This document shows, piece by piece, positions 16,043-61,186 of a stretch of 64,000 nt of DNA. How positions within the stretch are numbered: position 1 is the stretch's first letter; the number at the start of each line of letters is the position of its first letter. The stretch lies in contig SGBC01000004.1 in NCBI GenBank assembly GCA_004195045.1, positions 216,631 to 280,630 on the forward strand, given 5' to 3'. The notes below the pieces were generated by a model. The model saw only the letters and a program-made list of their open reading frames with translations. It did not search any database and was not told where the DNA came from. The position numbers and the translations under genes are program-made. This DNA comes from Candidatus Acididesulfobacter guangdongensis (lineage in GTDB: Bacteria > SZUA-79 > Acidulodesulfobacterales > Acidulodesulfobacteraceae).

Positions 16043-16579
16043 ATGGAAAATTTTATACTAAAATTTAAAAAATACACTTTGTTACTATGCTGCTTGCCTT
16101 TGCGTTAGGTGTTCTTGCTGTTGAATTTTTTAATAAAACTTTTCAAAATGCAAATTCAAAAGAACTGGTCCATGAGCTAACTATATATGCCTTATTATCA
16201 ACCGCTTTTGGAATGATTTCAATGAAAAAGATAACGAGGAATATTACATAACAGGAATAGTAGTTAGGATTAAACTTAATTATATGCCTATATATGATAA
16301 TAACTCTGGGAAAATCGGTTTATTTGATGAATCATCAACAGAAAAAGTTGTTAATGCCTATATGTTTGTAAAAAAATGATAGAAACACTCATGCTTTACT
16401 CTGAAACTTTAGAAAATAACAATGAACATTCCAACTTTATGATAAATCGGACAGTTCTTCTAATTAACAATATAAATGAAATTAAGAAATTAGAGACTGA
16501 TTTTAAAGAGTCAATAAAAGATGCTATAAAAGCATTAAGGGAAGAACTGTCGACAAATAGGTATATCCGAGATGAATAG
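16043..16579 (+). pseudogene. Membrane-anchored protein gene broken by three frameshifts
   Basis: A good ribosome-binding site (TTAGGAGAG) and ATG at 16043 open a frame (MENFILKFKKYT) that soon stops. Protein-like sequence continues in the -1 frame (TMLLAFALGVLAVEFFNKTF to about TIYALLSTAF, one membrane helix), then shifts -1 again near GCTTTTGGA (16211) to WNDFNEKDNEEYYITGIVV and NYMPIYDNNSGKIGLFDESSTEK, and again at the A7 run 16370-16376 to MIETLMLYSETLENNNEH, ending at 16579. Joined, this gives about 175 residues: a membrane helix followed by a soluble helical domain. Each step equals a one-base loss, mostly at homopolymers. The family is unknown. The final frame also exists as a 67-residue ORF from 16376 whose ATG overlaps the TGA before it. 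Confidence 0.55.
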
Positions 16580-17117
16580 TTCAAACCAAACCGCATTAGA
16601 CCTTGACGGCGTGATATTCGATTACGAAAAGACCTTTTTGAAGCAAGCCGCTAGGCTTAATCTAAATATCTCAATTAAGCATCCCGAAATATACAATATG
16701 ACTGAAAGATACGAAATCACGCAGGAACAGTTATCTTTAATTAACTTAAATATAGACTATTCCGATATGGATATTTTCGACGAAGTCTTAAACTTAAAGC
16801 GTTACATCATTAATATCAAATGCTTTATAACATCGTTTCCCGAAGAAATACTACATTTAAGGAAATCAAATCTATCTAAAATATTTAACAAAGATATTCC
16901 CGTATATTATGCGGGAGTTCAAGAAAAACATAGAATTATTTCGGAACTTGGAATAAAATATTTCATAGACGATTACGACGCTGTAATTCATCATATAGAG
17001 TTAAATTGTCCGGACTGCAAGGCGTATTGGCTTAACAGAGGATATAAGGATAAAACGTTACCGGAGCCGGTTAATAAGATAAATAATTTAACGGAGTTTT
17101 TTAAAATTAATTATTAA
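16572..17117 (+). CDS. HAD-superfamily phosphatase (5'-nucleotidase-like)
   Basis: The 181-residue protein shows the HAD motifs: ALDLDGVIFDY near the start (nucleophile Asp10 and acid/base Asp12), FITSFPEEI with the Thr/Ser of motif II, the Lys of QEKHRIISEL for motif III and KYFIDDYDAVI with paired acids for motif IV. The small cap and size suit 5'(3')-deoxyribonucleotidase-type or other small-molecule phosphatases. The C-terminal CPDCKAYWLNRGY could bind a metal but that is speculative. Its ATG overlaps the end of the broken gene at 16043-16579 by 8 bp. The gene itself appears intact within an otherwise decayed zone. Confidence 0.7.
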   Translation: MNSSNQTALDLDGVIFDYEKTFLKQAARLNLNISIKHPEIYNMTERYEITQEQLSLINLNIDYSDMDIFDEVLNLKRYIINIKCFITSFPEEILHLRKSNLSKIFNKDIPVYYAGVQEKHRIISELGIKYFIDDYDAVIHHIELNCPDCKAYWLNRGYKDKTLPEPVNKINNLTEFFKINY

Positions 17118-48841: not shown

Positions 48842-50515
48842 ATGCATTTCAATGTTTTAATAATAGGTTCGGGCATTGCAGGCTTAAGTCTGGCAAACAG
48901 ATACCCTGAAAATATTTCAGTAGGTATTTTTACAAAAAAAGAAGAGGCTGAATCAAACACAAATTACGCGCAGGGCGGTCTTGCGGCGGTTATGAATATT
49001 AAAGATTCCGTTGAACTTCATGTAAAAGACACATTGGCTGCAGGAGACGGTTTGTGCGACGAAGAAGTAGTAAAAATGGTTGTCGAAGAAGGACCGTCGG
49101 TTGTGGACGACCTGCTTAGCTGGGGCGTTAATTTTGCAAGATACAAAGAAAACGAAGAAACTTTTGATCTTGGAAGGGAAGGCGGACACTCGCAGAGGAG
49201 GGTTCTGCACGCCGGAGATATTACAGGCAGAGAAATAGAAAGAGCGTTAGTTGAAAAATCAAGAAGTAAAAGCAATATTTCAATTTTCGAAAATCATATT
49301 GCAATAGATTTTATTACCTCGCACAAATTAAAAAAAGAAAGAAATATGCCAGATAAAGTTTTAGGAGCTTATTTTTTAGATAAAAACAGCGACAGAGTAG
49401 TTCCGGTAAGCGCAGATTTTGTCGTTATAGCAACCGGAGGAGCGGGCAAGGTTTTTCTTTATACTTCAAATCCTGATATTTCCACCGGAGACGGGATTGC
49501 AGCGGCGTACAGAATAGGAGCTAAGGTTGCAAATATGGAATTTTATCAATTCCATCCTACAATTTTATATCATCCTGAAGCTAAATCTTTTTTAATATCC
49601 GAAGCGCTCAGAGGAGAAGGCGGCACTTTGAGGCTTAAAGACGGAACGCCTTTTATGGATTTGGTGCATCCCTTAAAAAGCCTTGCTCCGAGGGATATAG
49701 TAGCAAGAACAATTGATTTTGAAATGAAAAGGACCGGAGACGAATGTGTATATCTTGATATGACTCACAAATCAAAGGAATTCTTAGAAAAACGTTTTCC
49801 TGATATATTTAAAACAACACTCAGTTTCGGCATTGATATGTCAAAACAGTGGATACCCGTTGTTCCGGCTGCCCATTATCTCTGTGGAGGAATATTGACA
49901 GATAAAGACGGCTTAACGTCGATAGACAATCTGTACGCTATCGGAGAGGTCGCATGTACAGGACTTCACGGCGCAAATAGACTTGCGAGCAATTCATTGC
50001 TTGAAGGCTGTGTTTTCGCCAAAAAAGCCTACGAATCTACAATGAAAAAAATGGATAGTCTTATAAAAATAAAATCAGTTCAATTTCACTATGATGATAA
50101 ATCGTATAAATCGAACGATAAATCATCGCAGGATTTAAAATATAACGACGAAAATAATAATGACATCGTTCCCGAATGGAAAGATTTCGGTCTTGAAGGC
50201 GGAGACGAGCTTATAGTTATAACACATAACTGGGACGAACTGCGGCGAATGATGTGGAATTACGTCGGTATAGTGAGGTCAAATAAGAGGCTTGAAAGGG
50301 CTAAGAGACGCATTGATAACCTTATTGACGAAATTAAAGAATATTACTGGAATTTTAAAATATCTTCAGATTTAATAGAATTAAGAAATATTGCCGAGGT
50401 TGCAAATTTGATTATTACATCGGCTATGCTCAGAAAAGAATCTAGAGGAACGCACTATACTATAGATTATCCCGCAAAAGACGATAAAAATTTTAAACAT
50501 CCAACAGTACTGTAA
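48842..50515 (+). CDS. nadB: L-aspartate oxidase
   Basis: The 557-residue flavoprotein begins NVLIIGSGIAGLSLANRYPE (FAD-binding Rossmann motif) and has TNYAQGGLAAVM, GREGGHSQRRVLHAGDITGREI, FVVIATGGAGKVF, FYQFHPTILYHPE, PAAHYLCGGI and GLHGANRLASNSLLEG. These distinguish NadB from fumarate reductase by the HS(Q)R and the Glu/Arg set. It oxidises aspartate to iminoaspartate for NAD synthesis, using oxygen or fumarate. A Lys/Ser/Asp-rich insertion of about 25 residues (about 415-440) precedes the C-terminal helices. No nadA or nadC gene is in the window. Confidence 0.93.
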   Translation: MHFNVLIIGSGIAGLSLANRYPENISVGIFTKKEEAESNTNYAQGGLAAVMNIKDSVELHVKDTLAAGDGLCDEEVVKMVVEEGPSVVDDLLSWGVNFARYKENEETFDLGREGGHSQRRVLHAGDITGREIERALVEKSRSKSNISIFENHIAIDFITSHKLKKERNMPDKVLGAYFLDKNSDRVVPVSADFVVIATGGAGKVFLYTSNPDISTGDGIAAAYRIGAKVANMEFYQFHPTILYHPEAKSFLISEALRGEGGTLRLKDGTPFMDLVHPLKSLAPRDIVARTIDFEMKRTGDECVYLDMTHKSKEFLEKRFPDIFKTTLSFGIDMSKQWIPVVPAAHYLCGGILTDKDGLTSIDNLYAIGEVACTGLHGANRLASNSLLEGCVFAKKAYESTMKKMDSLIKIKSVQFHYDDKSYKSNDKSSQDLKYNDENNNDIVPEWKDFGLEGGDELIVITHNWDELRRMMWNYVGIVRSNKRLERAKRRIDNLIDEIKEYYWNFKISSDLIELRNIAEVANLIITSAMLRKESRGTHYTIDYPAKDDKNFKHPTVL

Positions 50516-50605
50516 GTTTGTCTTTAACTGTAAAAAAAGCCTACAATTTCTATAATCTGACACAGATAAAAAGATAAAAAATTGTCGATGAAAAATAAAT
50601 AAATC

Positions 50606-50754
50606 GATAAAATAAATCAGATATGGTTTATAAAAAATAAATAAAATAAATAAATCAGATATATATAATTAGATATGGTTTGTATATATTAAAATACTCC
50701 CGACCGCGGCAAACGCAGTCGGGAGTATGAGATAAAATAAATCAGATATGGTTT
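50606..50754. repeat. 24-bp direct repeats flanking the pilin terminator
   Basis: GATAAAATAAATCAGATATGGTTT occurs at 50606-50629 and 50731-50754, exactly. A partial copy (CAGATAT, then AGATATGGTTT) lies between at about 50657-50681. The hairpin terminator at 50694 sits between the two. Confidence 0.8.
50694..50728 (-). terminator. Rho-independent terminator of the prepilin-like gene
   Basis: ATACTCCCGAC pairs with GTCGGGAGTAT (11 bp) around a 13-nt loop. On the minus strand the stem is followed by TTTTAATATA. It is 36 bp after the prepilin stop codon and is much richer in G+C than its surroundings. Confidence 0.85.
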
Positions 50755-50764
50755 CTGTGATTTC

Positions 50765-51505
50765 TTATGACTGGCAAGGCGTCATATAAAATCCTTCTAT
50801 GTTGTCATTTGCGGATATAACCATGTAATAAGCGTAGCTGTCTTCTACCGAGCCGTTTGTATAGACATAATCTATATTGCCTATTTGTTCGGTATATTCA
50901 TTAACAGGTACGGTCGTGGTAGGCAGAACATAATTTGGATTGGTCGTCGCTGAATTGTTGCATATTAGACCTGCGGAAAGACCTGTTGCCGTGCCGGGAC
51001 CTGTAACTGCGCCGTTTGAATAAACAAGCCACCATGAATTGCCCGGGGTTGATGTTGAAGGAACGCTCGGAGCAGTTGTCACAATATTGTAAGATGTGCC
51101 TGAACCTGCCGGAGAGCCAGTTATAGGCGTTGTATAGTTAGGCAGTAATAAAAACGGATTTGCGTAAGGATTAGTTCCCGCTGTATTAGCGGCAGGCAGT
51201 GTAGGTTCAAATGTCACTTTTCCTTTTGTTGTAGCGCTAAACCCTGTAATAGCTACATAAGTTGATAAATCATTATTTACCAAATTTTTAGACATCTGGC
51301 TTGTTACACCCTCGCCAAGCGAGCCTATTACGCCCTGCGAAGCCGCCTTATTTGCCGAACCGGTTAAATTAACGAATTTCGGCAGTACCACAGCCGCCAA
51401 AATACCTATCAGCAAAATAACCATAACAAGTTCGATAAGCGTAAAAGCTTCGCTGTTTTTAAGTCTTTTAAAATCTTTCGTTAAAGAATCAAACATTTTC
51501 ATCAT
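50765..51505 (-). CDS. Type IV prepilin-like protein
   Basis: I use the ATG at 51505, which has GGGAG 5 bp upstream. The leader is short and basic (FDSLTKDFKRLKNSEA), followed by FTLIELVMVILLIGILAAVVLPKF, the prepilin N-terminal helix with Glu at position 5. The residue before the cleavage point is Ala instead of the usual Gly (SEA-FTLIEL), which some prepilin peptidases accept. The mature protein (about 225 residues) has a Pro/Thr/Ser/Asn-rich globular part and two or more Cys (CNNSA, and CQS at the very end). It may be a pilin or type II secretion pseudopilin. No assembly genes are in the window. Confidence 0.85.
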   Translation of the reverse strand: MMKMFDSLTKDFKRLKNSEAFTLIELVMVILLIGILAAVVLPKFVNLTGSANKAASQGVIGSLGEGVTSQMSKNLVNNDLSTYVAITGFSATTKGKVTFEPTLPAANTAGTNPYANPFLLLPNYTTPITGSPAGSGTSYNIVTTAPSVPSTSTPGNSWWLVYSNGAVTGPGTATGLSAGLICNNSATTNPNYVLPTTTVPVNEYTEQIGNIDYVYTNGSVEDSYAYYMVISANDNIEGFYMTPCQS

Positions 51506-51756
51506 TAACACTCCCTTTTTTAAATAAAATTAAATAAAAAAATTTCCAATAAATAAAATTAATAAAAAATATGTTAAATTTACAAAACATAGTCTAATAT
51601 TTAGATAAAATGTTATTTTATACTGACTTATTATATTATTAGTTTAATATATAATCAAATATTTTTTTTATGTTTATGTTTAACAATTTTATTATTTATT
51701 GCAGTATTATCAATTTGTCAGCGCAAATCGGGCGAAAAAATTTTTAATAAAATTTA
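51506..51756. other. AT-rich spacer between prepilin and PAS-GGDEF genes
   Basis: No gene and no clear signal; it should hold the prepilin promoter. AAATAAAATTAAATAAAA-type repeats occupy 51520-51570. Confidence 0.35.
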
Positions 51757-53403
51757 TTATTCCCAGCTCACTTTATTTCTTCCGGTATTTTTAGCGTTAT
51801 ATAAGGCGCCGTCCACTCTGAATATAATACTTGCGTTGGTATCGCCTTTCACTGCTTCCGTAATTCCGAAACTGCAGGTTAAGGAAGTTTCTATATTAAA
51901 ATCATGTTCTTCTATTTTTAGCCTTAATCTTTCTGCAAGCTCTTTTGCCGTAGAAAGAGGCGTTTCCGGCGAGATTATCATAAATTCTTCCCCGCCGTAT
52001 CTGAAGAAATAGTCCGTATTTCTTAAACTGCGTTTAATAAGTTTTGTTATTTCTTTTAAAATATAATCGCCTATTTCATGACCGAAGCCGTCGTTGACGT
52101 CTTTAAATCTGTCTATGTCGAACATAATAAGAGAAAGCGCTCTTCCGTACCTGTCAGCCGCGTTAAGAAGTTCTTCAAGTTTTTTATCAAAAGCCCGTCT
52201 GTTGCCTATTTTTGTAAGTTCGTCTATTTCCGACAATTCTTTATAGGCTTCTTTTTCTTCGGATATCAGTCTTTTCTCCAAGACTTCGTCCGTTATATCG
52301 TGTATAACTCCAAATCCCGCAATTTCGCCGTTATACACGATAGACATTTCAAAAAAATTAGCATATATAATGCTTCCGTCTTTTTTCTTGCATCTTACGA
52401 TATATTTTGAAATAAATCTTTCTTTGTTTTTTATTTTACCGAAACTTTTTTTGATTTTATTAAATTTTTTATCGTTTTCGTCAAAGAATTCCCAGACGTA
52501 TTTATTATAAAACTCTTCTTTGTCATAGCCGAATAATTTTTCGGCGGCGGGATTTGCGAATAATAGTTTTTCATTATAAATGCCGACAGGAATGGGCATA
52601 TTTTCAATAAGCGTTTTAAACAGTTCTTTATCGCTTTCAATCTGATTTCTCATATTAACCATTTCGGTTATATCGACGAAGCTTGCTATTCTTACTATTT
52701 CGTTTTTATATATAACGGACGAACCGTAAATATAAAGCCATATTTCTTCTCCTGATTTTTTTATAGCTTTAAATGTCACGTAATGATTATAGTTAATATC
52801 GCTAAGACCTCTGCGAATACCGTTTTTTGCTTCTTCTTTAAACTCGTCTGTATAAAGGTCCCATACATACATGCTCTTCAGTTCGTTTTCGCCGTACCCC
52901 AGTATTTTTTCTCCCGCAGGATTTATATAAATAACCTTTTCTTTATATAAAACAAGACCCATAGTCATATTTTCCGTAAGAGTTCTGAATAACTCTTCAG
53001 ATTCTTTTATTTTCTTTGCCAATTCTATCTTTTCGGTTATATCATGGATAATTGAAAAAAGAAAAGTTTTGCCGTTTACGCTAATCGGAGATATATGCAC
53101 TTCAACGGTTCTTAATTCGCCGTTTTTTAATTTATGTATGAATGTGAAATAGCTTCTTTCTTTATTATATGCCTGTCCGGTATATTTTATCAGTTCGTCC
53201 TTCGGAACGGTGTTGAAATCATAATTATGCATCGTTTTAAATTCTTCTTTGGAATATCCGTAAAATTCTACCGCAGCGTCGTTAACGTCGATTATTTGAC
53301 CGCTTTTATCGACTAAAATCATAATAGCGGAATGATTTTCAAACAGAGATTTATAGAAAATAAAAGAATTATCATTATCAGTTTTGGTTTCGGCAGCGTT
53401 CAT
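51757..53403 (-). CDS. Triple-PAS diguanylate cyclase, copy 1
   Basis: The 548-residue cytoplasmic protein has three PAS domains (about 12-130, 135-255, 260-380) and a GGDEF domain (about 385-548). PAS cores read IIDVNDAAVEFYGYSKEEF, VIYINPAGEKILGYGENEL and LLFANPAAEKLFGYDKEEF. The cyclase has FDIDRFKDVNDGFGHEIGD, the RNTD inhibitory site and RYGGEEF. It should make c-di-GMP in response to small ligands or redox state bound by PAS. No membrane segment is seen. The last 800 bp are nearly identical to the gene at 57639-59267, with only two or three mismatches; the middle PAS region differs completely. The antisense frame at 52078-52410 is a shadow. Confidence 0.92.
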   Translation of the reverse strand: MNAAETKTDNDNSFIFYKSLFENHSAIMILVDKSGQIIDVNDAAVEFYGYSKEEFKTMHNYDFNTVPKDELIKYTGQAYNKERSYFTFIHKLKNGELRTVEVHISPISVNGKTFLFSIIHDITEKIELAKKIKESEELFRTLTENMTMGLVLYKEKVIYINPAGEKILGYGENELKSMYVWDLYTDEFKEEAKNGIRRGLSDINYNHYVTFKAIKKSGEEIWLYIYGSSVIYKNEIVRIASFVDITEMVNMRNQIESDKELFKTLIENMPIPVGIYNEKLLFANPAAEKLFGYDKEEFYNKYVWEFFDENDKKFNKIKKSFGKIKNKERFISKYIVRCKKKDGSIIYANFFEMSIVYNGEIAGFGVIHDITDEVLEKRLISEEKEAYKELSEIDELTKIGNRRAFDKKLEELLNAADRYGRALSLIMFDIDRFKDVNDGFGHEIGDYILKEITKLIKRSLRNTDYFFRYGGEEFMIISPETPLSTAKELAERLRLKIEEHDFNIETSLTCSFGITEAVKGDTNASIIFRVDGALYNAKNTGRNKVSWE

Positions 53404-53654
53404 ATTTTTACCGTCTTCAATAAATAAATAAATAACATAATAAAAGCATTGAATAATTAATAAAGTAAATAATTAATTAAAGAGAATTGAATACTCTAAA
53501 AAACATAGTAAAATAATTAAATAATTAATCAAAGAAAACCAAATGCTTAAAAATCTTGTTGAACTTTTAATGTTAATATAATTTAAATAATTTTCTAAAA
53601 TAATTTACGGTTAATTTGATTATTTTATAGGCATAAATAAGCCGCATTTGCGGT

Positions 53655-54728
53655 TTATACGGCGCTTACTTTGTTTCTTCCTAATAATTTTGATTTATAC
53701 AATGCTTCGTCGGCTCTTTTTACCGTGTCTTCGGGGGTTTCTCTTTCTAACGCCTGAGTAAGTCCTATGCTTACGGTTAAATTTATATTGTGGATAAATT
53801 TATGGGATTCAATAGCTCTCCTTATTTTTTCCGACATTCTTTCGGCATTTATTTTTGAAGTATGCGGAGCTATTACCAAGAATTCGTCTCCTCCCCATCT
53901 TATTAGATAATCTGAAGCCCTTATATTATTTTTTATAAGAGCGGACGATTCTTTTAATACTATGTCTCCAGCGCTGTGCCCGTAAGTATCGTTTATATTT
54001 TTTAAATAATCTATGTCTATTATAGTTAAAGAAACGGGATAGTCGTATCTGAATGCGGCGGTGTATTCACGATTTATTATTTCGTCGTATTTATTTCTGT
54101 TAAACGCTTTTGTCAGATTATCAGTGGTGGCTAATTTTTCCAAAATTATTCTTTCGTTCATAGCTTTTTCGTTGTATGCCGCTACAGCCAGCGTGACGTC
54201 TATTGTCATAATCTTTTGAATGGAATCTATCACGTCTAGCAGGGTATCGTCGTCTATTTGCAGTTCCGGCATTTCCTTTTTTATAATCTCCATAAATAAC
54301 GATAAAAGATAGGCGTAGGATTTTATATAAATATCTAAAGATATTCCGTTATTAAAATGCGCAAAGCCAATCTGAAGCCTGCTAAAAAAATAGTCCTCGT
54401 CGTAATTGAGAGAAAAAAATTCTTTGATGTATTGCGAAAGCGATTGCTTCAGTTTAGATAATAAAGGCGGTTCTTTAAGTATAATTTTTTTAATAACTTC
54501 AAATTTAAGGAGGTGATTATAAAATTTATCGGCTATCGGATAAGAATTTTTAATCATTAAATCTTTGACTGTTGAAATATTTTCAATGTCTTTTCCGTCA
54601 ATATCGGAAAATTCCAAACTGAATTCTATATTATTTTTAGAAATAAGAAAATAAATTTCGTCAAACGAGTTTTTATTTAAATTTTCTTTTTCCAGTACGT
54701 TTTTTAAATTACGCATTATTCCGTTCAT
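53655..54728 (-). CDS. Globin-coupled diguanylate cyclase
   Basis: The 357-residue protein has an N-terminal globin-coupled sensor domain (about 40-190) and a GGDEF domain (about 200-357). The sensor reads ADKFYNHLLKFEVIKKI, then RLQIGFAHFNNGISLDIYIKSYAYL; the His of GFAH is at the place of the proximal haem ligand in such sensors. The cyclase has DIDYLKNINDTYGHSAGD, the RASD inhibitory site and RWGGDEF. Homologues such as DosC or BpeGReg change c-di-GMP synthesis when haem binds O2, NO or CO. The gene has a strong AGGAGGTAAT site. Its leader holds long nested hairpins and, further up, a run of 20 G. The neighbour upstream is a globin-coupled HD-GYP gene. Confidence 0.9.
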   Translation of the reverse strand: MNGIMRNLKNVLEKENLNKNSFDEIYFLISKNNIEFSLEFSDIDGKDIENISTVKDLMIKNSYPIADKFYNHLLKFEVIKKIILKEPPLLSKLKQSLSQYIKEFFSLNYDEDYFFSRLQIGFAHFNNGISLDIYIKSYAYLLSLFMEIIKKEMPELQIDDDTLLDVIDSIQKIMTIDVTLAVAAYNEKAMNERIILEKLATTDNLTKAFNRNKYDEIINREYTAAFRYDYPVSLTIIDIDYLKNINDTYGHSAGDIVLKESSALIKNNIRASDYLIRWGGDEFLVIAPHTSKINAERMSEKIRRAIESHKFIHNINLTVSIGLTQALERETPEDTVKRADEALYKSKLLGRNKVSAV

Positions 54729-54779
54729 AATTATTATTACCTCCTAAGCATAGCGGGAAACATAAAATCAGCGCGTTTT

Positions 54780-54809
54780 TTTGTCTGCCGATGTTTTAAG
54801 GCAGACAAA
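54780..54809 (-). promoter_or_regulatory. Leader hairpin of the globin-coupled cyclase gene
   Basis: TTTGTCTGCC and GGCAGACAAA pair perfectly over 10 bp with a 10-nt loop. The stem lies 52-81 bases upstream of the start codon. On the mRNA strand it is followed by a run of A rather than U, so it is not a typical terminator. Confidence 0.55.
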
Positions 54810-54818
54810 TTAGATTTG

Positions 54819-54931
54819 CGCAATAATTTATACGTTTGATCTTTAATTTATACGGCGCTTCATACTTATATAATATCTCAAGTATTGATAGTGAAAATAA
54901 ATTTACATGGAAAGATTTATAAATTATTGCG
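54819..54931 (-). ncRNA. Long fully nested hairpin in the cyclase leader
   Basis: Four stems nest in correct order around one terminal loop: CGCAATAATTTATA (54819-54832) with TATAAATTATTGCG (54918-54931), ATCTTT (54839) with AAAGAT (54911), AATTTAT (54845) with ATAAATT (54897), and ATACTT (54862) with AAGTAT (54880). As RNA this is a rod of about 113 nt, upstream of the hairpin at 54780-54809 and of the cyclase start. It could be a structured regulatory leader or a small palindromic element. It does not match the c-di-GMP-I or -II riboswitch patterns as I remember them. Confidence 0.45.
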
Positions 54932-55121
54932 TCTGCGCCGGTATTTGAATAAGACTGTTTTATTAAACTGCTGCAGGGAATTAATTTATTAAAATTAAAA
55001 AATTTTGAGAAAACAGCGTCTATTGAAAATATTAACGGCATAAATAATGCGAACGCTTCCGTCAGCCGATTCCTATAAATATCCGCAGCCGCTATCCTGA
55101 GTACTTTTATCCCCCGTATGC

Positions 55122-55141
55122 GGGGGGGGGGGGGGGGGGGG
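55122..55141. repeat. Run of 20 G
   Basis: A pure G20 tract, preceded by CCCCCGTATGC, stands in the 626-bp spacer between the globin-coupled HD-GYP gene (stop at 55355) and the globin-coupled cyclase gene (start at 54728). It is 394 bp upstream of the latter. In so AT-rich a sequence it is striking and prone to slippage. Its true length may differ because homopolymers are hard to assemble. Confidence 0.85.
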
Positions 55142-55354
55142 TGATATTAATATTATATTTTACCATGGCAGTTTTTGTATTCTTTTTATTATTTAATTTT
55201 ATTAAATTTAATAATATCGTACATATTCTTATTTAATATTATACATTATTATTTTTTTAAAAAAATTATGCAAGCAAAATTTTATTTTAATGTTTTAATG
55301 CAATATATTGTTAATACTTCAGTATATAGTATATAATAGCTTAAAAGAATAAAA

Positions 55355-56527
55355 TTAACGTATTGAACCCTTGTAATGATTTTTAATAGTCATGATATCG
55401 TCAAATCCTTTTGTGAACGCGTCAAACACAGCAGGGTCAAAATATTTTCCCACGCCCATTTCGTTTTTCATGATATTTATACTTTCTTCCACGGAATACG
55501 CCGGTTTATAAATTCTTTTATTTGTCAGGGCGTCGAATACATCGCTTATAATGCAAATCCTGCCGGAAATCGGAATATCTTCTCCCTTAAGTCTGTTCGG
55601 ATATCCGTATCCGTCATATCTTTCGTGGTGGGACAAAGCTATCTCCGCTCCGAATTTCATAATTTTAGAATCCGAACCGCTAAGTATCTCATATCCTTTT
55701 ATTGTATGCGTTTTCATTATTTCAAATTCGTCGTCGGTTAATTTTGCAGGCTTTAGCAATACATAATCCGGGATAGATATTTTACCTATATCGTGCATAG
55801 GCGAAGCTTCTAAAATATCCATCTGAAAATCGTAGTCAAATCCTAAATGTCTCGCAATTGTCATACAGTAATAAGACATTCTTTCGATATGAGATCCCGT
55901 ATCTTCGTCGCGGAATTCCGCTATGCGCGACAGCCTTTTAATAAAATCGTCGCTCAGTTTTTCTTTTTCGCTCATTTCTTTACTGTAGTAAGCTCTTATA
56001 ACTAAAGTAATATCCAGATTTATAATTTTTTGTATGGAGTTGACGATATTCAGAATTTCTTTATGCGAAAAGCCGCGTTTCGGGAGTTCGTCTTTTATAA
56101 AATAAATAACTAAAGATAAGAAATAAGAATAGCTTCCCATAAAAACATTGAACGGTATATTAACGTTTAAATGGGTAAGCCCCGTGTTAAATCTGAGAGC
56201 AAGATAATTATCATCGTAATTTAAGGAAAAAAGCTCTTTAAAATACGACGTATGCACTTTTCTTAAGTGTTCCGCGAGTCCTGGCTTTTCAAGCATAATA
56301 TCTTTCGTTTCTTTAAATTCAAGCAGATGGTCGTAAAATTTATCCATAAGGAAATCCATATTTTCAATAATCAATGAATTTATTTTTGAAAGATTTTCTA
56401 AATCGTCTTCGGTAAGTTCTAAAAATCTGTGTTCAAAATCTATGGATTTTGTGGAGAATATATCTATAATTTTTTTCTCAATATTCGGTTTTAAGTTTGC
56501 GTTTTCAATTGTTTTTAGAAGCTGCAT
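55355..56527 (-). CDS. Globin-coupled HD-GYP phosphodiesterase
   Basis: The 390-residue protein has a globin-coupled sensor domain (about 20-185) close to that of the neighbouring cyclase: MDKFYDHLLEFKETKDIM and RFNTGLTHLNVNIPFNVFMGSYSYF, with His at the proximal position of GLTH. It is followed by an HD-GYP domain (about 195-375): DEDTGSHIERMSYYC, SPMHDIGKISIPDYVL (HD pair), KTHTIKGYEILSG, ALSHHERYDGYGYPNRLKGEDIP (the GYP region is GYGYP) and RICIISDVFDALTNKR. HD-GYP enzymes hydrolyse c-di-GMP. Fusion of this sensor to HD-GYP is rarer than fusion to GGDEF. It lies just upstream of the globin-coupled cyclase gene on the same strand. Confidence 0.9.
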   Translation of the reverse strand: MQLLKTIENANLKPNIEKKIIDIFSTKSIDFEHRFLELTEDDLENLSKINSLIIENMDFLMDKFYDHLLEFKETKDIMLEKPGLAEHLRKVHTSYFKELFSLNYDDNYLALRFNTGLTHLNVNIPFNVFMGSYSYFLSLVIYFIKDELPKRGFSHKEILNIVNSIQKIINLDITLVIRAYYSKEMSEKEKLSDDFIKRLSRIAEFRDEDTGSHIERMSYYCMTIARHLGFDYDFQMDILEASPMHDIGKISIPDYVLLKPAKLTDDEFEIMKTHTIKGYEILSGSDSKIMKFGAEIALSHHERYDGYGYPNRLKGEDIPISGRICIISDVFDALTNKRIYKPAYSVEESINIMKNEMGVGKYFDPAVFDAFTKGFDDIMTIKNHYKGSIR

Positions 56528-56952
56528 ATCTATCTCCTATATTTTAAGTAAATTATTTTGGTTAAATTTTTATCAGCAATACGATTTTCATGCTTATATT
56601 TATTACGTATTTTATCTATTTTTTTAATAATTTAATGCTATTTATCTTATTAATCTATATTATTATAAATATTTTATTATAATAAATAAAATAAATAAAT
56701 AGTTATAGCCGATATGTCAGCAATGCAGCCGGATTAAATTCTCCTATAGCTGTTATAAGTCCTGTATTGACTAAACTATTCCGGTTCATTTTTAATGTAA
56801 TACTATTTTGCATTATATATTATATATTATACTACATATATTGCTAAATAAACTAATTATACAGTCTTCATTAATCATAAAATATGATATAATTGCAATT
56901 ACTATACTAATTACAATTTAAATTAAATTTTTATAATAATAGGTATTTAATT
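56528..56952. other. Divergent AT-rich spacer
   Basis: The 425 bp separate the HD-GYP gene and the phosphoribosyltransferase gene and should contain promoters for both. Runs of TTATAAT/ATATAT are frequent (56653-56710 and 56815-56850). No gene is seen. Confidence 0.4.
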
Positions 56953-57588
56953 ATGTTTAAAGATAGGGCGGAAGCCGGAAAATTGCTGGCAAAGCAATTA
57001 TTGCAATATAAAAATGATAAACCCGTTGTTATCGGACTTGCCAGAGGAGGCATTCCCGTAGCTTTTGAAATTGCACATGCGCTGTGCGCTTATTTAGACG
57101 TTGCTTTAGTTAAAAAAATAGGAGCTCCGGCGCAAGAAGAACTTGCAATAGGCGCTATAGTTGACGGAAAAAATCCTCAAATATTTCTTAATAATGAAAT
57201 TATCGGACATCTTAATATCACAAAAGATTATATCGACGAAATTATTAAAATTAAGCTTTCGGAAATTAGAAAACGTGAAAAGATTTATAGAAGCGGGAGA
57301 GACAGAATAGATATTGCCGGTAAAATTGCAATTGTTGTTGATGACGGTATTGCGACGGGCGCATCTATTAAAGCGGTAATAAAATCTTTAAAATCAGAAA
57401 ATCCAAAGAAAATTATTGTTGCCGTTCCGGTTGCTCCTATTGAAACAATAGCTGAACTAAAAAGAGAAGTTGATGAAGTTATTGTTTTATCGGTTCCTGA
57501 AAATTTTTATGCAGTCGGAGCATTTTATAATGATTTTAGCCAAACATCGGATGAAGAAGTGATTAGCTTTTTAGATAAAGTAAATTAA
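56953..57588 (+). CDS. Phosphoribosyltransferase-domain protein (COG1926 type)
   Basis: The 211-residue protein starts FKDRAEAGKLLAKQL and has VVIGLARGGIPVAFEIA, LVKKIGAPAQEELAIGAI and the PRPP-binding loop IAIVVDDGIATGASIKAVI. These are the marks of the putative phosphoribosyltransferases grouped with COG1926, which often lie near stress or hydrolase genes; their base substrate is unknown. It is convergent with the second PAS-GGDEF gene, 50 bp apart, and interrupts the otherwise minus-strand c-di-GMP block. Confidence 0.85.
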   Translation: MFKDRAEAGKLLAKQLLQYKNDKPVVIGLARGGIPVAFEIAHALCAYLDVALVKKIGAPAQEELAIGAIVDGKNPQIFLNNEIIGHLNITKDYIDEIIKIKLSEIRKREKIYRSGRDRIDIAGKIAIVVDDGIATGASIKAVIKSLKSENPKKIIVAVPVAPIETIAELKREVDEVIVLSVPENFYAVGAFYNDFSQTSDEEVISFLDKVN

Positions 57589-57638
57589 ATTTATTTTTTC
57601 TTTATACAGTTAGATATTTAATTCCGGCATCTGTTATT

Positions 57639-59267
57639 TTATTCCCAGCTCACTTTATTTCTTCCGGTATTTTTAGCGTTATATAAGGCGCCGTCAACTC
57701 TGAATATAATACTTGCGTTGGTATCGCCTTTCACTGCTTCCGTAATTCCGAAACTGCAGGTTAAGGAAGTTTCTATATTAAAATCATGTTCTTCTATTTT
57801 TAGCCTTAATCTTTCTGCAAGCTCTTTTGCCGTAGAAAGAGGCGTTTCCGGCGAGATTATCATAAATTCTTCCCCGCCGTATCTGAAGAAATAGTCCGTA
57901 TTTCTTAAACTGCGTTTAATAAGTTTTGTTATTTCTTTTAAAATATAATCGCCTATTTCATGACCGAAGCCGTCGTTGACGTCTTTAAATCTGTCTATGT
58001 CGAACATAATAAGAGAAAGCGCTCTTCCGTACCTGTCAGCCGCGTTAAGAAGTTCTTCAAGTTTTTTATCAAAAGCCCGTCTGTTGCCTATTTTTGTAAG
58101 TTCGTCTATTTCCGACAATTCTTTATAGGCTTCTTTTTCTTCGGATATCAGTCTTTTCTCCAAGACTTCGTCCGTTATATCGTGTATAACTCCAAATCCC
58201 GCAATTTCGCCGTTATACACGATAGACATTTCAAAAAAATTAGCATATATAATGCTCCCGTCTTTTTTCTTGCATCTTACGATATATTTTGAAATAAATC
58301 TTTCTTTGTTTTTTATTTTACCGAAACTTTTTTTGATTTTATTAAATTTTTTATCGTTTTCGTCAAAGAATTCCCAGACGTATTTATTATAAAACTCTTC
58401 TTTGTCATAGCCGAATAATTTTTCGGCGGCGGGATTCACGAACAGCAGTTTGTCTTTATATATACCGACAGGCAGGGGCATATTTTCAATAAGCGTTTTA
58501 AACAGTTCTTTATCGCTTTCAATCTGATTTCTCATATTAACCATTTCGGTTATATCGCAAAATGTTGCAAGTCTGGTATTCTGTTCTTTTAATTTTATAG
58601 TGGCAGTCTGCCACAGCAGCCATATGGAACTTCCGTCTTTTTTCAATCCTTCCAATATATATCTGCTTGTAGCACCGGCTGTTCTAATGTCTTCGTCAAA
58701 TCCGGCGTGTATTTCGTTCTGGTCTTTTTTGTTTATCAGATTAAACGGATTTAGTCCGAGGAGTTCCCCTTTGCTGTAGCCGAATGTTTCATGCGCCCTC
58801 GGATTTGCAAATATGATTTCTTTTCTATTGTATAATATTAACCCGGATGTGAGATTTATGGAAAGCGATTTAAAAAGTGTTTCAGATTCTCTGAGTTTTT
58901 CTTCAGCCCGCTTTTTTTCTGTTATATCATGGATTATTGAAATAATATAATTTTTGCCGCCGACATTTATCGTAGAAGCGTTCACTTCTACATTTTTAAG
59001 TTCGCCGTTTTTTAATTTATGAATAAATTCAAAATAGTTTCTTTCTCTATTATGCGCCTGTCTGGTATATTTTATCAGCTCATCCTTTGGAGCGGTGTTA
59101 AAATCATAATTATACATCGTTTTAAATTCTTCTTTGGAATATCCGTAAAATTTTACCGCGGCATCGTTTACATCGATAATTTTTCCATCTTCTTTGATTA
59201 AAATCATCACTGCGGAGCTATCCTGAAAAATAGATTCAAAAATGTTTTTGTTATTTTCTATATTCAT
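57639..59267 (-). CDS. Triple-PAS diguanylate cyclase, copy 2
   Basis: The 542-residue protein has the same domain order as the gene at 51757: three PAS domains and GGDEF with FDIDRFKDVNDGFGHEIGD, RNTD and RYGGEEF. From the stop codon through the third PAS domain the DNA is almost identical to copy 1 (about 800 bp with very few mismatches), then a 40-bp diverged patch, then about 90 identical bp. The middle PAS is unrelated at sequence detail (IIFANPRAHETFGYSKGEL here), and the first PAS is moderately similar. The two proteins thus share output but differ in sensing. A 12-G tract lies 275 bp upstream of the start. Confidence 0.92.
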   Translation of the reverse strand: MNIENNKNIFESIFQDSSAVMILIKEDGKIIDVNDAAVKFYGYSKEEFKTMYNYDFNTAPKDELIKYTRQAHNRERNYFEFIHKLKNGELKNVEVNASTINVGGKNYIISIIHDITEKKRAEEKLRESETLFKSLSINLTSGLILYNRKEIIFANPRAHETFGYSKGELLGLNPFNLINKKDQNEIHAGFDEDIRTAGATSRYILEGLKKDGSSIWLLWQTATIKLKEQNTRLATFCDITEMVNMRNQIESDKELFKTLIENMPLPVGIYKDKLLFVNPAAEKLFGYDKEEFYNKYVWEFFDENDKKFNKIKKSFGKIKNKERFISKYIVRCKKKDGSIIYANFFEMSIVYNGEIAGFGVIHDITDEVLEKRLISEEKEAYKELSEIDELTKIGNRRAFDKKLEELLNAADRYGRALSLIMFDIDRFKDVNDGFGHEIGDYILKEITKLIKRSLRNTDYFFRYGGEEFMIISPETPLSTAKELAERLRLKIEEHDFNIETSLTCSFGITEAVKGDTNASIIFRVDGALYNAKNTGRNKVSWE

Positions 59268-59853
59268 AAATATTTAGTTTTAAAATTAGTCAATAATATT
59301 GATTAAAGAGTTATAAATCATAATAAATATAATAAATAATAATTATGAAATGAAAAATTTCTGTTAATAAAGCAAATCACCGCGGCCGGCTTACAATAAG
59401 TATAATACGACTATAAGCAAAAATCCTGTTAGCAGGCGCATAGTAACCTATCGATATTTATAATTATACATGGCTATTAATATAATTATATATTATAGGG
59501 GATGAAATTATTAAAGATAAAATTATTAAATATAAAGCTTCGGGGGGGGGGGGTATTCATCATTTTATTTTTATTCATTATTTCCCTGATATCTAACGTA
59601 TTGCAAACTATATTGTAAAAATATTTTATAAAAGCACGCCGCATAATCTGTAAAACAAATTACTTATAATGTATTAATTATATATAATTATACATAAAAT
59701 AATATTACATATTCTATTTATGATATTTATTCGTGATGTTGCAATTTTAATAATATCAATAAATTAACAGTTTAAATTAACCTTTTTCATTTCAGGTGTC
59801 AAGATATTACATTATTTTTTAAAAAAAATCAACTATTTTTTTAATTATTTTTT
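59268..59853. other. Spacer upstream of PAS-GGDEF copy 2
   Basis: Apart from the G12 tract and a GC-rich patch CCGCGGCCGGC near 59381, the stretch is AT-rich and non-coding. No transposase remnant is recognisable. Confidence 0.4.
59542..59553. repeat. Run of 12 G
   Basis: A G12 tract preceded by AAGCTTC lies 275 bp upstream of the second triple-PAS cyclase gene (minus strand). It is the second long G run in the window, and again upstream of a diguanylate cyclase. Confidence 0.85.
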
Positions 59854-59883
59854 ATTGACATATAGAATACAATTTTATAAAAT
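59854..59883 (+). promoter_or_regulatory. Candidate promoter of the PAS-GGDEF gene at 60044
   Basis: TTGACA at 59854-59859 is consensus and is followed 15-17 bp later by TATAAA/TAAAAT-like sequence. The leader would be about 155 nt and contain the hairpin at 59993-60015. Confidence 0.4.
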
Positions 59884-59992
59884 CAAAAATTGTAAATAAT
59901 ATAAATAAATAAGTTTAATTCTAAATAGAAATTATATATATAACATCATAATTTAAAATACCTTGTTTATTTATCAAAAACCAAGCAAGAAA

Positions 59993-60022
59993 ACTCCGGC
60001 TTCTTAAGCGGGAGTAGTTCAC
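59993..60022 (+). mobile_element. IS200/IS605-like right-end hairpin remnant
   Basis: The sequence GAAAACTCCGGCTTCTTAAG CGGGAGTAGTTCAC forms a hairpin (ACTCC with GGAGT, GCTT with AAGC, one G-G mismatch) followed by TAGTTCAC. Hairpins of this form and the TAGTTCA tail are typical of the right ends of IS605-type elements carrying tnpB, where they also form the end of the guide RNA (recalled family pattern). No tnpA or tnpB sequence is found upstream, so it would be a relic or a small non-autonomous element. Here it lies in the leader of a cyclase gene, 21 bp before the ATG. Confidence 0.45.
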
Positions 60023-60043
60023 TTAATTTAAGGAGAGCTGATT

Positions 60044-61186
60044 ATGCAGGCAGCGGACGGCGGAGAGTTTATAAATTTAATAGATTCGGCGGATTGCAGT
60101 TTAGAACCAAATAATTTAGAAGCAAATTCCGTGCGTAATAATATTTTAACCGTCGATGCGTATGACGGCAGTTCAGATATCCATAGTGACGATAATAATA
60201 AGATAGGCTATAAAAATAATGGCGCAAACAACAAAAATGACAGTGCAATTAGCGGTTCTAACCGTATCCAGTCGCTAAACAGTCCTGCATTTATCAAAGA
60301 TAATATAATTAACGGCGTTGATGATATCGCAATTTCCGATATATTAAATTCCATGGAAGAAGCAGTGGTGATTACCAATAAAGAAAATAAAGTAATATTC
60401 TGCAACAGTTATTTTATGATTAATTTTAATATCAATTTAAATAGCTGTCTTAATAAAAATATCAAAGAAATTCAATATTTTAAATATTTGTTTTCCGATA
60501 ACTTAACAGTTCCGACCGAAATTAAAGACCTTGCTTCAGGATATAAGGTAACCAATATATATGAAATAGACAATCAGGATCATTATTTTGAAAACGACCG
60601 GATTCCTATATATGACAGCAGCGGAGAAACAAAAGGCATTGTCTATCTTTTCAGAGATATAACAAAAGAAATAAGATTTGAACAAAAATTGAACATACTT
60701 GCAAAAACAGACAGTTTATCAGGTTTATATAATTCAAGATATTTTTACGACGAACTTGAAAAAGAAATGACAAGGTGCGCAAGATATGGTTACGACCTGG
60801 CTTTAATGTTTATTGATATAGATAATTTCAAAATTTTTAACGATACATACGGTCATAAAGTTGGAGATGAGATAATAAGATTTACGGCTTATGCTTTAAA
60901 TAATTCTGTCAGAAAAAAGATTGATACAGTATGCAGGTACGGGGGCGATGAGTTTGTCGCAATTTTGCCTAATACTAATGCGATGCGTTCTACAATAGTT
61001 GCAAACAGGATAATGAACTTTTTTAATAGCGGATTAAATGAAAAATTGCAGACTTACAGCGTTAATCCCGATATTTGCGCAGATAACAATATCGTTGCGG
61101 AAAATGTTGGCGCAGATAAAAAAATTAATTTATCTGTAGGTATAAGCGAATATAAAAAAACGGGAAAAAGAGCGAGGAGCTCATAA
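60044..61186 (+). CDS. PAS-GGDEF diguanylate cyclase with a late frameshift
   Basis: The frame encodes 380 residues: an Asn/Asp/Ser-rich start (about 1-95), a PAS domain (about 100-220; EEAVVITNKENKVIFCNSYF and IVYLFRDITKEI) and a GGDEF domain with FIDIDNFKIFNDTYGHKVGD and RYGGDEF. The inhibitory RxxD site is absent (KKID instead). The frame ends oddly in GKRARSS. In the -1 frame the sequence goes on as EELINEADSAMYRAKKQSS and CKVCIFNNK to a stop at 61260, exactly the last helices of a normal GGDEF domain. So about 25 C-terminal residues are cut off by a one-base loss near the A-rich 61154-61170, or the assembly has an error there. A GGAGAG site supports the start. Confidence 0.85.
   Translation: MQAADGGEFINLIDSADCSLEPNNLEANSVRNNILTVDAYDGSSDIHSDDNNKIGYKNNGANNKNDSAISGSNRIQSLNSPAFIKDNIINGVDDIAISDILNSMEEAVVITNKENKVIFCNSYFMINFNINLNSCLNKNIKEIQYFKYLFSDNLTVPTEIKDLASGYKVTNIYEIDNQDHYFENDRIPIYDSSGETKGIVYLFRDITKEIRFEQKLNILAKTDSLSGLYNSRYFYDELEKEMTRCARYGYDLALMFIDIDNFKIFNDTYGHKVGDEIIRFTAYALNNSVRKKIDTVCRYGGDEFVAILPNTNAMRSTIVANRIMNFFNSGLNEKLQTYSVNPDICADNNIVAENVGADKKINLSVGISEYKKTGKRARSS

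Follow-up and report, generated by a model that had tools for sequence, protein, structure and literature searches.

Within a 64,000-nucleotide stretch of the genome of Candidatus Acididesulfobacter guangdongensis (contig SGBC01000004.1; hereafter the window), two adjoining minus-strand genes encode a predicted writer and a predicted eraser of cyclic di-GMP (c-di-GMP), each fused to its own globin sensor. Open reading frames and Pfam domains place the two genes, with their GGDEF and HD-GYP outputs, at exactly the coordinates given by an earlier note on this DNA, and confirm that both proteins are catalytically intact as judged from their motifs. The most useful new fact is a difference between the sensors: at position E11 of the globin the eraser has a histidine and the writer a leucine. 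This difference argues that the two haems would not behave alike. It also leaves the view that both sensors answer to the same gas at the same threshold as an assumption, and different thresholds appear more likely.

53655..54728, minus strand: writer, a globin-coupled diguanylate cyclase of 357 residues (open reading frame and Pfam domains; Shine-Dalgarno-like AGGAGG before the ATG)
54162..54629, minus strand: writer Protoglobin domain, residues 34-189 (Tyr70 at B10, Leu93 at E7, Leu97 at E11, His124 at F8)
53664..54143, minus strand: writer GGDEF domain, residues 196-355 (RASD I-site and RWGGDEF intact)
55355..56527, minus strand: eraser, a globin-coupled HD-GYP phosphodiesterase of 390 residues (open reading frame and Pfam domains)
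55976..56446, minus strand: eraser Protoglobin domain, residues 28-184 (Tyr65 at B10, Leu88 at E7, His92 at E11, His119 at F8)
56252..56254, minus strand: eraser His92 codon (E11), aligned with His66 of GsGCS (2w31)
55370..55963, minus strand: eraser HD-GYP domain, residues 189-386 (metal ligands as in 4mcw, except Glu to Asp209)

Domain architecture and catalytic motifs

Both genes have a plausible ribosome-binding site, as read from the DNA. The writer matches Protoglobin (PF11563; E=1.3e-25) and GGDEF (E=2.8e-40, residues 200-353), the eraser Protoglobin (E=4.6e-26) and HD_5 (E=7.1e-35, residues 199-367), all with scores above gathering. By these matches each protein has a signalling output behind an N-terminal sensor globin, the arrangement of a globin-coupled sensor (GCS). 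In the writer the motifs DIDYLK (at 238), INDTYGH (245), RASD (270) and RWGGDEF (277) are all intact, and the cyclase part matches TIGR00254 (E=3e-46). The globin ends at residue 189 and GGDEF starts at 196-200, leaving no room for a middle domain of the DosC/BpeGReg type; the writer is thus a short form. The eraser retains HDIGK at 245, HHE, and GYGYP at 306, so that every motif named in the earlier note (RWGGDEF, RASD, HD and GYGYP) is present by sequence.

A sequence search identified 4mcw, which we take to be PmGH of Persephonella, as the best solved relative of the eraser output (E=6.6e-57). The alignment retains H213, H245-D246, H274, H300-H301, D329 and GYGYP, and one metal-ligand Glu (Glu185) is replaced by Asp209; the His/Asp metal ligands are among the aligned positions. 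A structure model was made for the eraser only (AlphaFold; mean predicted local distance difference score 67.8, predicted template modelling score (pTM) 0.46). It superimposes on 4mcw with Z 22.2 and a root-mean-square deviation (rmsd) of 2.9 over 194 aligned residues at 47% identity. Its globin part matches 8h17, 2w31, DosC, HemAT and AfGcHK with Z 15.7-16.4 and rmsd 2.5-3.6 over 144-149 residues (2w31: Z 16.0, rmsd 3.1, 146 aligned; DosC, HemAT and AfGcHK: Z 15.7-15.8).

Sensor globins and the distal pocket

The sensors of the writer and eraser are 38% identical over 207 residues (E=4e-40), far beyond chance, and both find GsGCS of Geobacter sulfurreducens (2w31) as their best solved sequence match (E=3.1e-09 and 3.2e-10). 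In the alignment with 2w31 the proximal His at F8, which the earlier note had correctly placed in both sensors, and a distal Tyr at B10 are found in the writer (H124/Y70) and the eraser (H119/Y65), and E7 is Leu in both. The E11 residue separates them. In GsGCS the E11 residue, His66, is the distal ligand of a bis-histidyl haem (PMC4476040); the GsGCS-type pair of histidines at E11 and F8 is present in the eraser (H92/H119) and absent from the writer, which has Leu97 at E11.

We compared E11 across the globin rows collected here. In the 23 rows of HD-GYP type, with duplicates removed, the residue is Gln in 12, His in five and Asn in five, and one row, which covers part of the window's eraser, is too short to tell. 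The five with His are the window's eraser and the loci L035, L036, L037 and L049. The 52 distinct GGDEF-type rows have Gln (37), Met (5), Leu (4), His (3) or another residue (3). At E11 the two neighbours in the window therefore match neither each other nor the most frequent residue, Gln.

A proposed mechanism

The reading that we prefer, and to which we give about an even chance, is that of an opposing c-di-GMP pair gated by O2 or redox state, analogous to DosC-DosP, in which haem in homologous globin sensors would set different thresholds. A change of haem ligand or redox state would be passed through a helical linker to the GGDEF dimer of the writer and the HD-GYP dimer of the eraser. The writer haem may be five-coordinate and ready to bind O2, as in DosC-like sensors. 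The eraser haem would be ligated by both HisF8 and HisE11, like that of GsGCS, and an external gas would have to displace His92. Such an internal sixth ligand would lower the apparent affinity of the eraser or make it follow redox, and the eraser may respond at a different, probably higher, O2 level, or to NO, or to redox state. By analogy with DosC-DosP and with the Vibrio fluvialis enzyme described below, ligation would activate both enzymes and their unequal affinities would set the net sign; the affinities of DosC and DosP are also unequal. Following the DosC-DosP logic, net c-di-GMP would peak at intermediate O2 and be high in part of the oxygen range only. The domains, the 4mcw match, the matches to GCS folds, HisE11, the effect of O2 on the V. 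fluvialis enzyme, the single sensor clade and the cydAB genes of the host all speak for this reading.

Sensor kin in the genome and family

The scanned genome (2,217,123 bases in 5 contigs) contains four Protoglobin matches: the pair, a globin-PsiE-type membrane protein and a PAS-GGDEF-globin-GAF-EAL protein. In the 30 genomes of the family (G000-G029) we counted 21 Protoglobin-HD-GYP genes in 16 genomes and a simple Protoglobin-GGDEF gene in two, G000 and contig L037 of G023; these counts stand apart from the outputs of the contig-end globin fragments L046, L050 and L053, of frame G028:C39 and of long weak matches in G001, G002, G003 and G005.

A tree built from 35 globin domains places the two writer sensors in one clade with the 21 HD-GYP sensors (23 rows, support 99/93); the next sensor outside it is L012, a single-domain-size family globin (98/93). 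The same sensor clade has support 92 in a quick tree of 66 rows, from which 15 rows had been removed beforehand, mostly duplicates or fragments; one globin-PsiE-size row of G018 was lost in both its copies. The 35 domains are a subset of these 66 rows and the clades were named after the larger tree had been seen. The earlier note had expected the two sensors to be sisters. They do belong to one clade; on strict sisterhood, the best tree groups the writer with the pair-type erasers at 80/21, joining two long branches, and the alternatives of all erasers together and of the writer with the other erasers both stand in the approximately unbiased test (p-AU 0.24 and 0.44). The accompanying idea of a domain swap agrees with the globin tree, by which the sensors share an origin and a sensor of the local clade appears to have come to sit on a GGDEF domain. 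The nearest other GGDEF locus of the genome to the writer GGDEF belongs to an 831-residue protein, at 46% identity.

Some further globins were seen in the family. L001 1495-2391 combines a sensor globin with a PsiE-type membrane domain (PF06146), and globin frames of that size (281-301 residues) occur in 21 of the 30 family genomes, the Pfam check having been made on L001 only. His occupies E7 in 26 of 48 globin rows lacking GGDEF or HD-GYP; these are probably the globin-PsiE-size rows.

Conservation of the arrangement in relatives

In L037 the order of eraser, writer and a PAS-PAS-PAS-GGDEF gene is identical to that of the window, at 90, 94 and 93% DNA identity. The L035 contig (G011) is cut within the eraser, and a related eraser in L054 (G017) has no GGDEF gene within 5 kb downstream. 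L037 and L035 are binned in another genus, yet their eraser DNA is about 90-92% like that of the window; the L037 eraser protein is 96% identical to the window's, against 72% for G017 and G028 of that other genus. Only one gene of the L037 flank was found in relatives, a multi-copy gene with its nearest match in the window's genus (84%). The L037 and L035 contigs may reflect misbinning or transfer. At two other family loci, L038 and L045, the eraser adjoins a GGDEF gene that has no globin.

A small protein DLDGVIFDYEKTF, HAD-like by eye, is encoded at 16572-17117 in the window, L037 2715-3299, L041 6172-6702 and L043 4544-5074. At the DNA level it has multiple matches in many genomes of the family, and three times it adjoins a globin-HD-GYP gene.

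The intergenic gap and flanking genes

The gap between the writer and eraser contains a long poly-C run, and related PAS-PAS-PAS-GGDEF (PAS3-GGDEF) genes lie on either side of the pair.

55122..55141, minus strand: 20-nucleotide poly-C run in the 626-bp gap, 393 bp upstream of the writer ATG (15 nucleotides in L037)
51757..53403, minus strand: PAS3-GGDEF gene directly downstream of the writer; same order in L037
57639..59267, minus strand: second PAS3-GGDEF copy beyond the eraser; C-terminal half near-identical

Poly-C runs of at least 11 did not arise in 100 shuffles and are not expected by chance in the window, which has 32% GC. There are five runs of at least 12 in the genome, three of them upstream of GGDEF genes: the run at 55122-55141, one of 12 nucleotides at 59542-59553, which precedes the second PAS3-GGDEF gene by 274 bp, and a third, poly-G on the coding strand, which precedes the gene of the 831-residue GGDEF protein by 95 bp. 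Among 15 runs at 14 places in five congeners, two more precede PAS3-GGDEF genes (L268, 12 nucleotides; L273, 14 nucleotides), and the remainder lie beside other genes or at contig ends. The poly-C places fetched, 17 in all, came from one genus, with G006 incomplete, and the association of runs with GGDEF genes was noticed post hoc. Several contigs of metagenome-assembled genomes end close to poly-C runs. The unequal run lengths at matching sites raise the possibility of phase variation of c-di-GMP synthesis; a homopolymer assembly error is also possible.

As assembled, the frame that begins with an ATG at 55166 runs for 19 codons before a stop, and its L037 counterpart for 16. With one extra C they would reach 123 and 54 codons and read alike, but two DNAs that are 90% identical read alike in any frame. 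A putative frame of 81 residues lies in the gap at 54796-55041 on the minus strand, and an extra C would fuse it to ATG 55166. Promoter and terminator scans gave results at the level of shuffled sequence. A known riboswitch in the gap was considered and rejected, as the four Rfam matches in 50000-61000 all fall well below gathering scores. The two flanking PAS3-GGDEF genes share an identical run of 560 bases and are 98.6% identical over 919 bases and 81% over a 302-base N-terminal stretch, which on sequence grounds points to recent gene conversion or duplication.

Comparison with known systems

The output of GsGCS is transmembrane, neither GGDEF nor HD-GYP, although its HisE11 and HisF8 are those of the eraser. 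RpfG of Bordetella carries a receiver domain and no globin, unlike the eraser here. It is the proposed HD-GYP partner of the globin cyclase BpeGReg, which makes that combination similar to our pair (PMC5549716). Similar in arrangement is DosC-DosP (DgcO-PdeO) of Escherichia coli, in which an adjacent writer and eraser, both haem-based, act on c-di-GMP in opposite senses and the writer has a globin. The earlier note was right to set the pair apart from it: DosP is a PAS-haem/EAL protein (PMC8846402), where the eraser here is Protoglobin/HD-GYP. DosC-DosP form a single operon (PMC8846402); our genes are same-strand neighbours 626 bp apart. DosC also has a middle domain (PMC5549716) that the writer lacks. 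In Kosakonia, KoBdcA/KoBdcB/KoBpdA provide an opposing O2-responsive haem writer and eraser, but with PAS-haem sensors and an EAL eraser (PMC13141831).

We had to abandon the suggestion that the eraser is a new architecture. The GCS-HD-GYP proteins of V. fluvialis and V. furnissii (Kitanishi 2024, PMC10882959) have, like the eraser, an HD-GYP domain at the C-terminus and, at the N-terminus, a globin that carries a distal Tyr and a proximal His. Hydrolysis of c-di-GMP by the V. fluvialis enzyme is promoted by O2, with no enhancement from CO or NO, and the enzyme appears active as Fe(III) and as Fe(II)-O2 (PMC10882959). It is presented as a lone protein, and the words operon and adjacent occur nowhere in the main text of that paper. 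In acidithiobacilli, Protoglobin is reported with GGDEF, GGDEF-EAL and EAL; the HD-GYP domains reported there either stand alone or are joined to receiver domains (PMC6416229).

The surveys covered 386 genomes from the family outward (356 outside it), 369 genomes of the class of an Alteromonas, and smaller sets, which partly overlap. No second globin-GGDEF/globin-HD-GYP pair was found among the matches listed outside the family in the 356 and 369 genomes, and among those matches globins in separate fused genes nowhere lay within 10 kb of one another. Globin pairs seen close together there were frames of single-domain size (G332, G118) or, in G415, a single frame containing both globins. At 20 places outside the family, analysed with a custom globin profile and single-sequence queries for the outputs, a globin was found in 17, three of these having GGDEF and none HD-GYP. 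In the Alteromonas-class survey, 47 places chosen for frames of about 340-405 residues, a choice that set aside at least three weaker matches (G645, G528, G780) and other sizes, yielded 44 gammaproteobacterial globin-GGDEF proteins with no space for a middle domain, the short form seen in the writer, and no globin-HD-GYP. Absence from these places is not absence from the class, because the Vibrio GCS-HD-GYP proteins (PMC10882959) exist there. A loosely analogous writer/eraser neighbourhood was seen in Bipolaricaulota (L126 4464-7326), where a globin-GGDEF gene adjoins an HD-GYP gene without a globin. The literature on globin-coupled sensors that we searched, with most subscription papers outside the search, yielded no adjacent globin-GGDEF and globin-HD-GYP pair. 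The parts are known already, and the combination, a side-by-side globin pair with differing gas-pocket residues, looks unusual.

Alternative explanations

Several observations weigh against an O2- or redox-gated opposing pair. In G005, of the same genus, an intact eraser stands beside a broken writer (L036): a deletion remnant at 1402-1761, with pieces matching 54259-53983 and 53731-53648, that lacks most of the sensor and the GGDEF-motif stretch. A globin-GGDEF writer was found for 2 of the 21 family erasers, some of them on cut contigs, and with a 626-bp gap between the genes no operon is evident. HisE11 also occurs in three of the 52 distinct GGDEF-type globins, and so is no hallmark of an eraser; its assignment is alignment-based, and the eraser model (pTM 0.46) contains no haem. 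Of the earlier note's reading, a writer and an eraser on homologous, lineage-specific sensors stand, control by the same gas is an assumption, and the broken writer of G005 and the want of an evident operon count against a coupled pair.

It is possible that the genes are two independent gas sensors, their adjacency a record of local duplication and domain exchange, working from separate transcripts in a network of about 20 GGDEF and 6 HD-GYP proteins. We regard this as rather unlikely, though well short of far-fetched. The 626-bp gap with its AT-rich leader, the 22 GGDEF and 7 HD_5 matches in the genome (6 over the cut-off), the retained eraser and broken writer of G005 and the placement of both sensors within one clade would all fit it. 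The 19 promoter-like sites neither link nor separate the transcripts, because the count is no higher than in shuffles (mean 21.2). However, L037 shares the eraser-writer-PAS3-GGDEF order at a DNA identity of 90-94%, so the arrangement outlasts some divergence, and opposing enzymes on kindred sensors would be unlikely to be functionally unrelated. We think it improbable that the pair senses NO or haem redox rather than O2, with a bis-His eraser as a redox switch and a writer that follows NO or O2. HisE11, the activity of the V. fluvialis enzyme as both Fe(III) and Fe(II)-O2 and the ferrous-iron-correlated acid habitat (PMC6776010) would suit such a switch, but both sensors keep TyrB10, which is linked to O2 recognition in GCSs (PMC10882959), and every protoglobin cyclase in Table 3 of PMC8846402 is listed with O2 as its signal. 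Least probable by far is that one partner is inactive on c-di-GMP, as a degenerate cyclase or an HD-GYP protein for another cyclic dinucleotide. Asp209 in place of a metal-ligand Glu of 4mcw, and a match of the HD-GYP part to V-cGAP3, a 3'3'-cGAMP phosphodiesterase, could be taken that way; the remaining motif residues checked are intact in both proteins, and 4mcw is far the better match (6.6e-57 vs 2.3e-31).

Biological context and meaning

The host is a member of an acid-mine group with no cultivated representative, whose members are thought to be sulfate reducers and perhaps also sulfide oxidisers; the host has a cydAB high-affinity oxidase and is likely a facultative anaerobe (PMC6776010). 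Life near oxic-anoxic borders, as the earlier note had supposed, fits such a host. The word c-di-GMP is absent from the paper that describes it (PMC6776010).

An extended form of the O2- or redox-gated pair would see in it a gas comparator derived from one ancestral sensor, in which a five-coordinate, O2-binding writer and a bis-histidyl eraser of shifted threshold would confine high c-di-GMP to a band of oxygen or redox. The writer alone would sit under a hypervariable poly-C leader, part of the population dropping the writer and keeping the eraser. We hold this combination to be a long shot. In the O2-responsive writer/eraser pairs that we met in the literature (PMC8846402, PMC13141831) a PAS sensor is found in the eraser at least, and here both partners have kindred globins. 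As a natural experiment, the pair may show what a single residue, E11, does to the response of a globin sensor, and whether a sensor present in two copies can yield a band-pass c-di-GMP response.

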